In this document: positions 4,323 to 22,152 of the stretch, piece by piece | Layout of the letters: each line of letters begins with the position of its first letter | How positions within the stretch are numbered: the stretch's first letter is position 1 | Source: Meiothermus rufus DSM 22234 | GTDB lineage: Bacteria > Deinococcota > Deinococci > Deinococcales > Thermaceae | NCBI RefSeq assembly: GCF_000423425.1 | Contig: NZ_AUHY01000021.1 | Span: forward strand, 1-44,057 | DNA: 44,057 nt | Direction: 5' to 3' | Program-made: the position numbers and the translations under genes | Notes under the pieces: generated by a model | Database searches by the model: none | Told to the model about the DNA's origin: nothing | The model's input: the letters and a program-made list of their open reading frames with translations, nothing else

Positions 4323-4820
4323 GTGGAAGCTAAGAAGCGTTTGAAAAAAGGAGAGCGCAGCGATATTCGCCGGGATGTGCGGGATGTGCACTACCCTGGC
4401 TCGGCGGGGCTGATTCGCTACGCCAGGCTCTCGTTGCGCCAGAGGGAAAAAGCGGTTAAGGATGAGGTGCCCCATACCTATGCCCGTGCCACTGCGCGCT
4501 ACGTTCGTATGTCGCCGCGCAAGGTGCGTCGGGTGGTTGACTTGATCCGGGGCAAGAAGCTCGAGGAGGCCCGGGCCATCCTCAAGTACACCTCGCACCG
4601 CGCTGCCGAGGTGGTGGCCAAGGTGCTGGAATCGGCGGCGGCCAACGGTATCAACGACGACCGCAAGAACATGATCGAGGATCAAATTTACGTCAAGGCG
4701 GCTTATGTAGACGAAGGGCCAGCCCTCAAGCGGATGCTGCCTCGAGCCCGGGGAAGTGCCAACCTGATCAAGAAGCGTACCAGCCACATCACCATCATCG
4801 TGGGGGAGAAGAATGGGTAA
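4323..4820 (+). CDS. rplV: 50S ribosomal protein L22 with N-terminal extension
   Basis: L22 lines the peptide exit tunnel. Residues from about 55 on are normal L22 ([20 protein letters not shown] through [11 protein letters not shown]). The first ~50 residues are an extra, highly basic segment beginning [12 protein letters not shown]. The family is usually about 110-135 residues; this is 165. The GTG at 4323 is supported by the AAGGGGTGAAC ribosome-binding site and its 10-nt distance from rpsS. A start at GTG 4467 would give an ordinary 117-residue protein with a weaker AAGGA site. The stop overlaps rpsC by 8 nt. Confidence 0.9.
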
Positions 4821-17271: not shown

Positions 17272-18582
17272 TTAGCGGCTGGGCGGCTTGATGCCCAGGG
17301 CCTCGAGGGCCTTTTCCAGCGGCAGGTCGCGCCCAGTGTTGGCGAGTTGCTCTAGGGAGTTTTCCGCGGTGAAGTCCGGAGTGGTTCGGGCAGGGTAGGG
17401 GGTGCCATCGGCGAAGAAGGCCCGGTTGTAGGAGATGCTGAGGGCCCCGCCATTGATCAGGTTGAGGGGGCGGGTGGTGGTGTTGCCAATGCCTAGGGTG
17501 GGCGTTCCTACCACGGGAGCCCGGCGGGCCCGTTGAATGGCCGAGGCCAAGTACTCCCCGCCCGAGGCGGTGTTTTCGTCTACCAGCACCACCAAGGGGC
17601 CTTGCCAGCGGGCGTAGACCGGCAGGTTGGCCGAATCGCTCTGGTCGTTGCGGGTGATGGAGAGGCGCCCCTCGCGGATGCGGAACTCGGTGCGCTCAGT
17701 CTGGTAGCGGTCAACCAGGGCCACGTAGGGTTCCTCGAGGAAGGCCGCCGCGGCGTAGATCATCTCGTTGAGCAAGCCCCCGCTGTTGCCCCTGAGTTCC
17801 AGCACCAAAGCCCGCAGGTTTTTCTGCTGGGCTTCCCGCACCAGCTCGTGCACCCGGCGGCCTACCTGGCCTTGGGCGTCGAAGTCGGGGATGCGCAAAA
17901 TGCCCACCCCGTCGGGCCGCACCCTGAGGGAGGGGAAGCGGGCTAGGTTGATCTCACGTCCGACTAAGGTGATCTCCAAGCGCTGGCGTTCGGGCCCCCG
18001 CAGGATGGTGAGGGTCACCGGCCGGCCTGACTGCACCGACTCCAGCAAAAACTGGGTGGTTTCCTGATCGCTGGTGAAAGTTTCCAAAGCGCGCCCGTTG
18101 ATGGCGATGATGCGGTCGCCGTAGGCCAGCCCGGCCTCGTCGGCAGGGCCGCCTTCCACCACGTCCACGATCAGCCGGTCGCGCGAGCCGGGTACCGGCA
18201 CATGGGTAATGCCGATGCGCAGAGTGCGAGAGGGTGCGTTGCCCTGGCGGCTTTCCCGGGTTCCCCGCAAGGCCTCGGGGCTGAGGTAGTAGGTGTGGTT
18301 GTCCTGCAGCTCGCCCACCATGCGCTGGATGATGGGCACGGCTTGGTCGTAGGGGCAGGTCTCGGGTTGGGGCGCGCAGGTGCGCTCGAGCTCCACCTGG
18401 TAGCGCCGGGTCAGCTCCTTGAGGTTCTGGTTGGCCGGGCCGTAGTAGTAAAACTCCACGTAGAAGCTGGCTTGGTCAAAGAGATCCTGAGCCGGTGAGG
18501 CCAGCGAAAACGAGCCCAGCAGCAAGGCCAGGGTCAGTACGGCCTGCCGGGCTTTAGTGGAAAAAGTACCCAGTCGTTCCAT
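17272..18582 (-). CDS. Exported S41-family C-terminal processing-peptidase-like protein
   Basis: 436 residues. An N-terminal membrane/signal segment (about 13-29, LTLALLLGSFSLA) is followed by SPAQDLFDQASF, a Cys pair at residues 69 and 76, a PDZ-like domain at about 125-210 (EGGPADEAGLAYGDRIIAING) and the S41 catalytic core. The nucleophile Ser is present (S340 in TASGGE). The general-base Lys expected 25 residues later in a GKG motif is Ile365 (LGIGN), so activity by the usual Ser-Lys dyad is doubtful. It is co-transcribed with the paralogue upstream: 8 nt gap containing AGGTGG as ribosome-binding site. Confidence 0.85.
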   Translation of the reverse strand: MERLGTFSTKARQAVLTLALLLGSFSLASPAQDLFDQASFYVEFYYYGPANQNLKELTRRYQVELERTCAPQPETCPYDQAVPIIQRMVGELQDNHTYYLSPEALRGTRESRQGNAPSRTLRIGITHVPVPGSRDRLIVDVVEGGPADEAGLAYGDRIIAINGRALETFTSDQETTQFLLESVQSGRPVTLTILRGPERQRLEITLVGREINLARFPSLRVRPDGVGILRIPDFDAQGQVGRRVHELVREAQQKNLRALVLELRGNSGGLLNEMIYAAAAFLEEPYVALVDRYQTERTEFRIREGRLSITRNDQSDSANLPVYARWQGPLVVLVDENTASGGEYLASAIQRARRAPVVGTPTLGIGNTTTRPLNLINGGALSISYNRAFFADGTPYPARTTPDFTAENSLEQLANTGRDLPLEKALEALGIKPPSR

Positions 18583-18590
18583 AGCACCAC

Positions 18591-19835
18591 CTACCGCAGC
18601 ATTTGCAAGGCGCGCTCGAGGATCACATCGCGCCCGGCCACCAGGGCTTCTAGATCGTCTTCCACCAGTACATCGGGGGTGAGTTTGAAGGGGAAAGGCG
18701 TGCCGTCGAGGTGTCGCATGCGCAAAGAGGAGACCGCGATGAACTCGCCGTTGATCAGGGGGCCCTCTGCGCTACCAGACATGCCCAAGGCCCCGGCAGT
18801 GGGCTCGCCCACCACCTTGGCCCGCCCGGCGGCCTGGAGGAAGTAGGCGAGCATCTCGCTGGCGTTGAAGGTGTGGCGGTTGACCAGCACCACCACCGGT
18901 AGCCGGGCCAGGTAGGGTTGCTCGAGGGCGCTTTGCTCCTCTTTTTCTTCCCCTTCCGGCTGCACGAATAGCCGTCCATTCTCTACGGTGTAGGTCTCGT
19001 CTAGCCCTTGGAAGCGGCGGTCGTAGATGAAGCCCCCCCTTCCGATAAAGGCGCTGGCCGCCAGCAGGGCCTCAGAATCGTAGCCGGTGAGCGCGTCGCG
19101 CAGGTCAATCACCAAGCCCCTAGCCCCGGCCTCTTCGGCACGGCGGGCTGCGGCGTGGATGCGCTCGGCAGGGGAGAAGCGCTCCGAGCTAAAGAGATGA
19201 TAGATGCGCAGGTAGGCGATGTTGTTGTTGATCTCGAGCCGGGGCTGCATGGTGGCCTCGGCTACCCGGGGGGTGAGCTGGGCCGTGCGGGGGCTGTTCT
19301 GCCGGCTGTAGCTGAGGCGGATAGGGTTGCCGGCGGCTTCGGCGGCTTGCAGGTTAGCCAGGCGGGCGGGCTGGCCGTTGATCTGGGTGATCAGGTCGCC
19401 CCGCCGCAAGCCTGCCTCAAAGGCGGGCTCGCCGGGAAAGGCCTCGCTCACCACCAAGCCCCGGGGGGTTTCGCGCACCCATACCCCAATTCGGGCGGTG
19501 GCTGGCCCCAGCCCGGCCCCATAGCGTTGCTCGTCGATGAGCTGCTCGCGGGTCATCAGCATGGTGAAGGGGTCGGCGATCTCCTGCACGATACGGGCGA
19601 TGACCTGCCGGGCCTTGTCGAAGCCACACTTTTCCCCTTCAGCAGCGCAGAGCTGGTCGAGCTGGGGCTGGTATTGCCGCCTGAGCTCGCGGAAGGGAGC
19701 CACCTTGGCCGGGCCGTTGTAGTAAAAACCGATGAGGAAGGTGGCCTGGTCGAACAAATCCTGGGCGGGGGAGGCCAAAACTGGGCTGGTGAGCCCCCAT
19801 ATCAAGCAGCTCAGCAGGGTTTTTCGTAGGGTCAT
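18591..19835 (-). CDS. Exported S41-like paralogue, probably catalytically dead
   Basis: 414 residues. A signal peptide (MTLRKTLLSCLIWGLTSPVL-A) leads into the same SPAQDLFDQATF motif and Cys pair (63 and 70) as its neighbour, then a PDZ-like domain (about 115-190). In the S41 core the position of the nucleophile Ser is Asn324 (TFNASE) and the Lys position is Ala349 (GEPTAGA). Ser326 is the only nearby hydroxyl. It may be a binding or regulatory partner of the downstream paralogue. A -10 box TATATT sits six bases before the ATG with no ribosome-binding site, suggesting a leaderless mRNA. Confidence 0.82.
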   Translation of the reverse strand: MTLRKTLLSCLIWGLTSPVLASPAQDLFDQATFLIGFYYNGPAKVAPFRELRRQYQPQLDQLCAAEGEKCGFDKARQVIARIVQEIADPFTMLMTREQLIDEQRYGAGLGPATARIGVWVRETPRGLVVSEAFPGEPAFEAGLRRGDLITQINGQPARLANLQAAEAAGNPIRLSYSRQNSPRTAQLTPRVAEATMQPRLEINNNIAYLRIYHLFSSERFSPAERIHAAARRAEEAGARGLVIDLRDALTGYDSEALLAASAFIGRGGFIYDRRFQGLDETYTVENGRLFVQPEGEEKEEQSALEQPYLARLPVVVLVNRHTFNASEMLAYFLQAAGRAKVVGEPTAGALGMSGSAEGPLINGEFIAVSSLRMRHLDGTPFPFKLTPDVLVEDDLEALVAGRDVILERALQMLR

Positions 19836-19859: not shown

Positions 19860-20432
19860 TTAAACAGGTGGTAAAGGGGCACTTTGTGGGGCGTGGTCGG
19901 GGCAGAAGAGGCGTAGCTCGGCAGGGGGGAGAGGTTGCTCCAGCAGGCGGCAGTAGGCCTGGCCGTGGGTGTAGCTATAGTGACAACAGGTCAGGCACAT
20001 ACCACTTTCGCCCATCAGGCCCTCTTGCACCAGGTGGGCCAGGATAAAAAGCAGGTCTTGCAACAGGCGTTCGGGGGCCTCCAGGGTTTGCCAGGCTTTG
20101 CGCAGCGGGGCATCCCAATGGCTGAGGTGCTGGGCTAGCGCTTGACCTTGAGGGCTAATCCGCAAGACCCGGCGCCTTTGATCGGTAGGGTCTTTTTCCC
20201 GCAGTAGGCAGCCTTTGGCCTCGAGGCTTTGCAAAGCCTCGCTCACGGTGGGTGGGCTCAGGGCCAGGCCTTCGGCCAGGGCGGCAACCCCTTGGGGTTT
20301 GCGGGCCAGATGGAGCAGGAGTAGGGCCTGGGTAGGCGTAAGGCCTAGAGGATAGGCCTGGGCCCACAACAAGGCACGTTGACCCTGGGCCAGACGTTCC
20401 AGGGCCGCGCTGAGTTTGTCCTCGAGGTTCAC
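19860..20432 (-). CDS. MarR-family regulator with Cys-rich C-terminal tail
   Basis: 190 residues. The winged-helix DNA-binding region is at about 33-95 (VAALAEGLALSPPTVSEALQSLEAKG, then the wing DPTDQRRRVLRIS). The last 50 residues are not ordinary MarR: C146, C149, C150, H151, H156, C161, C177 and H180 form a C-X2-C-C / C / C-X2-H set that could hold an iron-sulfur cluster or zinc. Start GTG 20432 has TACAAT six bases upstream. It lies 21 nt downstream of cytochrome P460 and is the obvious candidate to bind the palindrome at the P460 promoter. Family call is firm; metal binding and target are inference. Confidence 0.85.
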   Translation of the reverse strand: MNLEDKLSAALERLAQGQRALLWAQAYPLGLTPTQALLLLHLARKPQGVAALAEGLALSPPTVSEALQSLEAKGCLLREKDPTDQRRRVLRISPQGQALAQHLSHWDAPLRKAWQTLEAPERLLQDLLFILAHLVQEGLMGESGMCLTCCHYSYTHGQAYCRLLEQPLPPAELRLFCPDHAPQSAPLPPV

Positions 20433-20438
20433 GCGTTC

Positions 20439-20444
20439 ATTGTA
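20439..20444 (-). promoter_or_regulatory. -10 box of the MarR gene (leaderless)
   Basis: TACAAT on the minus strand, six bases (GAACGC) before GTG 20432, inside the 21-nt gap after the P460 stop. It would give the regulator its own transcript in addition to read-through from P460. Confidence 0.5.
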
Positions 20445-20453
20445 GAGCCTTCG

Positions 20454-20915
20454 CTAGGGGCGGTAGGTGCTGAACACATAATCGCTGCTGGCAGCACCTT
20501 GATGGCAGGTGAAGCAGGCTTGGGCGTCGATGCTGAGCGGTGCCTTATTCGGCCCAAAGGCCAGGAAGCCCCAGCCGCCCGTGCGGGCATAGCGGCTGCT
20601 GTTCTTGACCATCACCCCTACCAGCTTGCGCGGACCTTCCAGGGTGGCCCCTTGCTCCTTGCGCACCTCGAGCAGGTCGAAGGCGATCACCGAGCCATCG
20701 GGGAAGCTACGGCGATCCGAGAGATAGCCGGCAAGGGCTTGGGGATTGGCGTAAATGTGGTGCAGACCGCCAAAAGCCTCATAAAGAGGGTGGCCTGGCC
20801 CGATTTCCATGCTCTTGATGTGCGTCCAGAAGCGATATCCTTCCGGATAAGAAGAGCTGCCTTGGCCCAGGGCTAGGAAGACCAGAAACAAGCCTAACCA
20901 GAGGGACTTACGCAT
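20454..20915 (-). CDS. Cytochrome P460 family monoheme c-type protein
   Basis: 153 residues, exported (signal segment LWLGLFLVFLALGQG at 5-19). The domain has the P460-type pattern YRFWTHIKSM, GGLHHIYANPQAL, FPDGSVIAFDLLE and GPRKLVGVM, and ends with a heme-binding CFTCH (C134, C137, H138) and DYVFSTYRP. Family members oxidise hydroxylamine or nitric oxide, or simply bind NO; which applies here cannot be told from sequence. The ribosome-binding site is AGGAGGTG. The promoter and palindrome upstream suggest tight regulation. Confidence 0.88.
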   Translation of the reverse strand: MRKSLWLGLFLVFLALGQGSSSYPEGYRFWTHIKSMEIGPGHPLYEAFGGLHHIYANPQALAGYLSDRRSFPDGSVIAFDLLEVRKEQGATLEGPRKLVGVMVKNSSRYARTGGWGFLAFGPNKAPLSIDAQACFTCHQGAASSDYVFSTYRP

Positions 20916-20927
20916 GGCGCACCTCCT

Positions 20928-20948
20928 ATATTTAGGATTCCTAAATAT
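20928..20948 (-). promoter_or_regulatory. Palindromic operator at the P460 promoter
   Basis: Perfect inverted repeat: arms ATATTTAGGA and TCCTAAATAT (10 bp each) around a single central base. It covers the downstream half of the -10 box and the predicted start site, so a bound protein would block RNA polymerase. The dyad length and TTAGG/CCTAA cores fit a dimeric winged-helix repressor. The neighbouring MarR protein is the likely binder (inference); the TTAGG core also recalls DtxR-type iron boxes. Confidence 0.75.
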
Positions 20949-20973
20949 TAGCGTAGCCTCGAGGCCCTGTCAA
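20945..20973 (-). promoter_or_regulatory. Sigma-70-type promoter of cytochrome P460
   Basis: TTGACA (20968-20973), a 17-nt spacer, then TAATAT (20945-20950) on the minus strand: a perfect -35 at ideal spacing. Transcription should start near 20938 inside the palindrome, leaving a ~23-nt leader that contains the ribosome-binding site. Confidence 0.8.
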
Positions 20974-21027: not shown

Positions 21028-22152
21028 CTAGGGCCTAGACCAGCCCCAGGCCTGGGCCCAAGAGGGGCTGGGCAGCCCCTGTACCACCTCGAAGCTGCTC
21101 AGGAAGGTGCCGGGGTAGTAGTAGCCCAGGATTTGGCGAAAGTCCCAGCCTTGCAGGGCCAGCCCCCGGGCGCCCCACTGGCTCATGCCCACACCATGGC
21201 CCAGGCCCTGGCCATAGACCTGCCAGCCCTCAAAGCGCACCCGGGTAGAGGGCAGGCCCAGGCTGCGCAGAAGGCGGGTGGCCAGGGGGGCCTCGAGTTC
21301 TAAGCTTCCCCCGCTGCCGCTGATGCGCAGGCGAAGGGGCCGCCCACTCTCGCTCAGTAGAACCGGCTGCACGGTTTGCACGCTGCCCACTTGAAGGCCC
21401 AAAGCGGCCAGACCCTGGGCCACCGCCTCGGGGGAGAGGCTGCGGCTCCAGGCGCTGTGAGGGCTTTGGGCAAAGGGATCGGGGCGGGCCACCAGATAGG
21501 GCAGGCTGTTGCCCCAGACCTCGGCTGAAGCGGCGGTGTGACCGCCGGAGTCGGCGTGGTAGACCGCGGTGATGGGTTTTTGCCGGTAGCTCACAATTAA
21601 GCCTCGGGTGGCCTGGACTGCTGCGGTGTGGCGGGGGGTTTCGACTTGGCGGCCCCGGTAGACCTGGCAGCGCTCGGTGGCGCAGAGGTCGTAAAGGCCC
21701 TGGGGGTTCAGGCGATAGAGGGCAAAGGTGCGGGCCAGAATGGCCTGGGCCTGCAAGACCGCTTCCGGGAAGGAGGCCGGAACCTCACCCGGCATCACCC
21801 CCAGCAGGTAGTCCTCGAGCCAGACCCGGTTGATGAAGAGAAGGCGCCCCCCCTGCCAGACCGCCAGCAGGTTGCCCCGGTAGGGCCGCCCTTCCAGGGT
21901 AAAGCCTTCGGGTGAGGCCAGCTCCACCCAAGGCCCCTGGCCTTGTCCTTCCAGCACCACCTCGCCCGCCCCAGCCCACACCCGCAGGCTGCCTGCGGGG
22001 AAGTCCCGGCTGCCCAGGGCGTTGTTGCGCAGATGGGGGCCAACCTGCACCCCCTGAGCAGGAGCCTCGCTAAGCAGTACCCGCAGGAGTAGGTCGGGCT
22101 GGGCCCAAGCGGCTCCCAGCCAAAAGAAGAGCAGCACCCAGAGGCGAGCCAT
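21028..22152 (-). CDS. SpoIID/LytB-domain exported cell-wall protein
   Basis: 374 residues from ATG 22152 (AAAGG eight bases upstream); a longer in-frame extension lacks support. Signal peptide MARLWVLLFFWLGAAWA. SpoIID-domain motifs are all present: LEDYLLGVMPGEVP, QAILARTFALY, CQVYRG, HADSGGHT and GHGVGMSQWGARGLA. In sporulators SpoIID is a lytic transglycosylase; in non-sporulating bacteria related proteins trim or regulate peptidoglycan, the likely role here. It follows bshC with a 55-nt gap. Confidence 0.88.
   Translation of the reverse strand: MARLWVLLFFWLGAAWAQPDLLLRVLLSEAPAQGVQVGPHLRNNALGSRDFPAGSLRVWAGAGEVVLEGQGQGPWVELASPEGFTLEGRPYRGNLLAVWQGGRLLFINRVWLEDYLLGVMPGEVPASFPEAVLQAQAILARTFALYRLNPQGLYDLCATERCQVYRGRQVETPRHTAAVQATRGLIVSYRQKPITAVYHADSGGHTAASAEVWGNSLPYLVARPDPFAQSPHSAWSRSLSPEAVAQGLAALGLQVGSVQTVQPVLLSESGRPLRLRISGSGGSLELEAPLATRLLRSLGLPSTRVRFEGWQVYGQGLGHGVGMSQWGARGLALQGWDFRQILGYYYPGTFLSSFEVVQGLPSPSWAQAWGWSRP

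Follow-up and report, generated by a model that had tools for sequence, protein, structure and literature searches.

A MarR-family regulator with a four-cysteine tail and a conserved palindromic operator, a candidate gas or redox sensor of heme protein genes in Thermaceae and other bacteria

ArnR of Corynebacterium glutamicum is the closest working analogue of the regulator described here. It combines a MarR/ArsR-like winged helix with a C-terminal, cysteine-ligated [4Fe-4S] sensor and represses the NO-detoxifying heme gene hmp until NO nitrosylates the cluster and the DNA is freed (PMC12343034). By its published description ArnR is set apart by having three conserved cysteines, by occurring almost only in Actinobacteria and by regulating nar together with hmp (PMC12343034), whereas the regulator studied here has four invariant cysteines (C-X2-C-Xn-C-X15-C), a different operator and a distribution over about 12 phyla among the matches listed. 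NsrR, including NsrR-Th of the Thermus nic cluster, is an Fe-S sensor of NO that is encoded beside nir/nor and controls NO-related genes, but it belongs to the Rrf2 family, has three cysteines and in Thermus uses the operator CTTGACCNNGGTCATGG (PMC5748679). The 2017 paper on the nic cluster makes no mention of a MarR regulator (PMC5748679). SufR and other Fe-S winged-helix repressors likewise pair a winged helix with a [4Fe-4S] cluster, and SufR differs in its targets (the suf operon), as far as the portrayal of these proteins cited in PMC12343034 goes. CioR from Chromobacterium, a MarR repressor of cytochrome bd, contains one cysteine and was ruled out as the same regulator. In the open-access papers searched we found no earlier description of the tail, of the operator, of the pairing with a P460-fold gene or of a protoglobin gene combined with this type of MarR gene.

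The window analysed is a stretch of 44,057 nucleotides from Meiothermus rufus DSM 22234 (contig NZ_AUHY01000021.1, positions 1 to 44,057), and the features of the locus are collected in Table 1. A preliminary description of the window had placed a perfect palindrome with 10-bp arms over the -10 element of a TTGACA-17-TAATAT promoter in front of a P460-fold gene, and we confirmed these coordinates. The MarR gene starts 21 bp past the stop codon of the P460-fold gene. For 44 kb of order-1 random sequence, the expected number of palindromes of this kind (perfect, with arms of 10 bp or more and a gap no larger than 1) is 0.18; the window contains two. Because the second one, at 20222-20241, lies within the MarR coding sequence, the length of the palindrome is by itself weak evidence for an operator.

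Table 1. Features of the operon and its surroundings in the Meiothermus rufus window.
Feature	Coordinates	Strand	Basis
-35 element TTGACA of the operon promoter	20968..20973	-	sequence
-10 element TAATAT, 17-bp spacer to the -35 element, overlapped by the operator	20945..20950	-	sequence
Candidate operator, 21-bp perfect palindrome ATATTTAGGA-N-TCCTAAATAT (N = A here), core TTAGGANTCCTAA	20928..20948		conserved at tail-MarR loci across phyla
Shine-Dalgarno sequence AGGAGG of the cytochrome gene	20922..20927	-	sequence
Predicted cytochrome c'-beta (P460 fold), 153 aa, ATG at 20915	20454..20915	-	PF16694; PDB 7ead/8brk
MarR-family regulator, 190 aa, GTG start	19860..20432	-	Pfam, AlphaFold, Foldseek
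Four-Cys C-terminal tail, residues 140-190 of the MarR protein	19863..20015	-	Cys invariance; HiPIP-like fold lead
Two S41-family peptidase-like genes (18591-19835, 17272-18582)	17272..19835	-	downstream of MarR

The tandem S41 genes are possibly co-transcribed with the MarR gene in the window, and their products apparently lack the usual catalytic Lys motif, judged by eye, which agrees with the preliminary description of them as degenerate. They had been suggested to belong to the same regulon, a suggestion that we abandoned: S41 genes are absent beside the MarR gene at all other Thermaceae loci examined, and they lie outside the conserved module. Upstream of the operon, at 21028-22149 on the minus strand, is a SpoIID-family gene (PF08486), in the genome of a non-sporulating lineage.

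In the comparisons that follow, conservation of the palindrome, not its length, provides the strong evidence that it is an operator. Of the 50 Thermaceae genomes sampled, 18 encode a close relative of the P460-fold protein, and the Cys-tail MarR gene directly adjoins it in all 18. The core TTAGGANTCCTAA is found at the promoter of each of these 18 operons, exactly in 14 and with one mismatch in four, and abuts the -10 element. A blind search for the exact core identified it in 16 of the 50 genomes, with one copy each and always at this operon, including two genomes in which a protoglobin stands in for the P460-fold protein; the reversed sequence, used as a control, was found in one of the 50. 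A 17-mer operator query with two mismatches allowed still returned one site per genome. Since the single site lies at the regulator's own operon, it would be a local autoregulatory operator in Thermaceae, not a regulon-wide box. Nearly all of the 20 Thermaceae promoters listed have TTGAC[AG] at the same distance (L032 is an exception), and the -10 elements of the relatives, of the TATTAT, TAATAT or TATCAT type, abut or overlap the operator. The MarR protein and the palindrome almost certainly form a regulator-operator pair.

The heme protein of the window matches PF16694 (1.3e-29, over the cut-off), contains the heme-c motif CXXCH in the form CFTCH, and has a hydrophobic N-terminus consistent with a signal peptide. 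Its best match in the PDB, and closest solved relative, is cytochrome c'-beta from Thermus thermophilus (TtCP-beta; 7ead/8brk, E 3.9e-61). Phe79 and Gly100 of the window protein align with the diagnostic residues Phe61 and Gly82 of TtCP-beta (PMC11928373, table 2), and the protein therefore lacks both the cross-linking Lys and the distal carboxylate found in the hydroxylamine-oxidising P460s. We rejected identity as a hydroxylamine oxidase (cytochrome P460) on account of these two substitutions. Cytochromes c'-beta do not oxidise hydroxylamine, and TtCP-beta binds NO (PMC11928373). The window protein is thus a cytochrome c'-beta by its sequence, predicted to bind NO without oxidising hydroxylamine. 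Hydroxylamine and NO had both been considered as substrates in the preliminary description; hydroxylamine is dropped with this assignment, and the link to NO is strengthened by nirS and by the recurrent pairing of the regulator with protoglobin, truncated hemoglobin and globin genes, described below. No operon or gene cluster turned up when the text of the cited review was searched (PMC11928373), and the present analysis gives cytochrome c'-beta a gene context and a regulator.

Within Thermaceae the heme protein next to the regulator is exchangeable. Four Thermus genomes have a protoglobin gene (PF11563) between the operator and the P460-fold gene. In G001 and G004 (Calidithermus roseus), which represent two other Thermaceae genera, the operator is followed by protoglobin and MarR genes, with no P460-fold gene. 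A short open frame between operator and P460-fold gene in G037 retains the first and last residues of protoglobin and looks like an in-frame deletion. All 50 Thermaceae genomes encode other PF11563 proteins, so that presence of a protoglobin is uninformative and adjacency alone was used. Broken copies of the regulator were also observed: in G028 (C1, L077:4810-5265) a frame that begins like a redoxin continues, across a deletion, into the latter half of the MarR gene, and in G031 (C16, L079) and G049 (C36, L086, near 4420-4560) only a remnant of the tail is left, in G049 after a transposase-like frame. Judged from these remains, the three are decayed modules, with broken tails left where the module was lost.

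In the genus Thermus the operon is connected to NO by its usual neighbours, a nirJ-like radical SAM gene and nirS, which encodes cd1 nitrite reductase, an enzyme that makes NO. All 14 Thermus genomes with the P460-MarR operon have nirS, versus 2 of the 13 without it; the Fisher p of 6e-6 ignores kinship and physical clustering, and it overstates independence, since part of the linkage reflects physical clustering and the genomes share ancestry. The genome of M. rufus has neither a cd1 NirS nor a clear Cu-NirK. Cu-NirK was also discarded as a shared source of NO, with weak multicopper-type matches only, except in two Thermaceae that lack the module. On balance we lean towards NO as the main signal.

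The regulator is a MarR protein by both sequence and predicted structure. It matches PF12802 (6.6e-13, 49.1 bits, cut-off 27) and PF01047 (36.4 bits, cut-off 24.6); searches against Pfam and NCBIfam gave MarR and other winged-helix models and no Rrf2 domain. The full-length AlphaFold model (pLDDT 90.9) has the MarR fold, terminal dimerisation helices included, with the tail as a short hairpin, and Foldseek returned 248 PDB matches at E up to 0.001, with MarR proteins ranking top. In an alignment of 48 sequences only 8 columns are invariant, and half of these are the tail residues C146 (19995-19997), C149 (19986-19988), C161 (19950-19952) and C177 (19902-19904). These four survive from the ligand set C-X2-C-C/C/C-X2-H put forward in the preliminary description, in contrast to C150, which is not conserved, and H180, which is replaced by Phe in three relatives from the same genus; neither was kept as a general ligand. 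No Pfam family covers the tail, and such proteins are therefore annotated simply as 'MarR family'.

No solved chain matched the tail by sequence at a convincing level, and because the Foldseek matches of the full model spanned the MarR core only, we modelled the tail alone (pLDDT 77). The best Foldseek match of this model, a weak one, is the small subunit of 4-hydroxyphenylacetate decarboxylase (2y8n_B, E 0.5). With VIA-align only three chains reach Z of at least 2, also weak scores: the same decarboxylase subunit (3.9) and two HiPIPs (2.4 and 2.0), all of which are HiPIP-fold [4Fe-4S] proteins (PMC12358834). The tail has the ligand pattern CX2CXnCXnC of HiPIP-like proteins and a similar span from first to last cysteine, which at 31 residues (C146-C177) equals that of the Rhodothermus HiPIP as inferred from a profile alignment, and its model may resemble them in fold. 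The structural score, however, is weak and the sequence match not significant (none of 38 tails matched PF01355, the HiPIP family, within an E limit of 1; hhalign probability of 4.6% against the HiPIP profile), so that homology by sequence is not established, and HiPIP-like proteins are not known as sensors fused to MarR. We regard the match of the model as a lead for a [4Fe-4S] cluster, short of proof, and think it fairly probable that the tail holds an Fe-S cluster.

The same MarR protein with its tail is widespread beyond Thermaceae. A genome scan (best 80 of 134 matches) and a plasmid search, in which genes were called by a simple script and counts are indicative, yielded at least 91 further loci. 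Among the matches listed they cover about 12 phyla, with representatives from Cyanobacteria, Chloroflexota, Acidobacteriota, Actinomycetota, Planctomycetota, Nitrospirota, Nitrospinota, Binatia, Myxococcota-type bacteria, Pseudomonadota, Bacteroidota and Deinococcus. Setting aside 24 Burkholderiaceae-type loci without the operator leaves 67 loci among the matches listed, of which 31 contain the strict operator TAGGANTCCTA and 48 a relaxed form (one mismatch or a CGGA variant), compared with 2 to 13 for five control palindromes. The A/T flanks at +/-8 to 10, which were not used to select sites, are conserved as well, and the window site fits the extended consensus. A gene for a gas-binding heme protein is located within about 4 kb at 25 of these 67 listed loci (protoglobin 17, truncated hemoglobin 5, P460 3, globin 2, with two kinds at two loci), and at none of 8 loci with a tail-less MarR gene, a control that was small and had shorter flanks. 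Other recurrent neighbours are redoxin, thioredoxin-like, AhpD-like and MOSC genes and a secreted-looking family described below; thiol peroxidase and catalase genes also occur among the partners, and NnrS at two loci. The earlier proposal is thereby supported in so far as a P460-fold gene shares a palindromic operator with the gene of a MarR protein whose Cys tail resembles a metal-cluster site. Pairing and operator are conserved and the four cysteines are invariant, so that the sequence comparisons that could have refuted the proposal did not.

Several of the more distant loci have features of their own. In Nostoc (L088:3294) and Novosphingobium (L099:4605) a second operator immediately precedes small thioredoxin-like genes, which suggests an extended regulon in these organisms. 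The Burkholderiaceae-type loci (L128-L146 and L166-L175, of the Paraburkholderia/Burkholderia/Trinickia type) have no operator and no gas-binding heme gene nearby, and share a fixed, different neighbourhood in which a glutamine amidotransferase and, among others, a SET-domain protein are encoded. In these bacteria the regulator has probably been re-targeted. At an Archangiaceae locus with a P460 gene nearby, two adjacent operator-like copies are present in the promoter (L153:3971-4000). A secreted-looking family of about 240 aa, which matches no Pfam or NCBIfam model, adjoins the Cys-tail MarR gene in Cyanobacteria, Chloroflexota, Alphaproteobacteria, Deinococcus and Bacteroidota (L105:667-1422 on the minus strand and 17 other loci, for example L094, L102, L118 and L157).

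The explanation that we prefer, with moderate confidence for the whole, is autorepression: upon NO or related stress, a repressor with an Fe-S tail would release its own operon, which encodes a heme NO scavenger. An operator placed over the core promoter implies repression by exclusion, which fits a repressor and not an activator, and the location of the regulator gene within the same operon implies autoregulation; a role of the MarR protein as repressor is very likely on these grounds. Invariant cysteines point to a metal or thiol sensor, and the partner genes to a gas or redox signal. We hypothesize that a MarR homodimer binds the palindrome and blocks RNA polymerase, and so would repress both the heme protein gene and its own gene. 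The four tail cysteines would ligate a metal centre, for which a [4Fe-4S] cluster within a HiPIP-like fold is the likeliest candidate, and attack on this cluster by NO or a related reactive species would cause the dimer to leave the DNA. The released operon would then supply a protein that binds or removes the gas, which is cytochrome c'-beta here and protoglobin, truncated hemoglobin or globin in relatives, and the co-produced regulator may reset the switch.

The main rival to NO as the signal keeps the repressor and the operator, and takes the tail to be a zinc site or a thiol redox switch that responds to oxidative or thiol stress (peroxide, disulfide or reactive sulfur), with the heme proteins serving a wider redox response. 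Four cysteines would fit zinc equally well, and the redoxin, peroxidase, catalase and other redox neighbours outside Thermaceae, along with the second operators before thioredoxin-like genes, are what such a switch might control. However, four unrelated kinds of gas-binding heme protein recur beside the regulator, most of them with the operator, and NnrS and the linkage to nirS in Thermus also speak for NO. The tail, moreover, has one CXXC where zinc ribbons usually have paired CXXC knuckles, and the proteins matched by its model carry [4Fe-4S] clusters. We consider a zinc or thiol switch possible, though distinctly less probable than the Fe-S autorepressor.

In most of the MarR proteins studied, ligands are sensed in the cleft of the dimer, and the model of the MarR core is ordinary here. 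The tail could accordingly be structural only, with a small organic molecule bound in the pocket typical of MarR proteins as the signal and the heme linkage reflecting general stress or gene clustering. This is improbable, as hardly any position of the MarR core is as well conserved as the tail cysteines, and the partner genes encode gas-binding and redox proteins instead of catabolic enzymes or efflux pumps. That the palindrome is a chance occurrence or the site of another regulator, with the MarR protein acting elsewhere, might be argued from the second palindrome in the window and from the Burkholderiaceae-type loci, but is nearly excluded by the exact, once-per-genome co-occurrence with the tail-MarR gene in Thermaceae and by the excess over control palindromes across phyla among the matches listed.

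The proposed Fe-S autorepressor of Thermaceae may belong to a previously undescribed family of sensors for gas or redox signals that extends across phyla, in which a HiPIP-like [4Fe-4S] module on a MarR repressor, with the conserved operator ATAnTTAGGANTCCTAAnTAT, is dedicated to protoglobins, cytochromes c'-beta and other gas-binding heme proteins; we see the case for this broader proposal as evenly balanced. The physiological roles of protoglobin and cytochrome c'-beta are still unsettled, and a common regulator and operator across phyla offer a testable handle on the signal behind both. If the tail does bind a [4Fe-4S] cluster, the widespread MarR family would gain a metal-cluster sensory branch, with a regulon that can be predicted by motif search.
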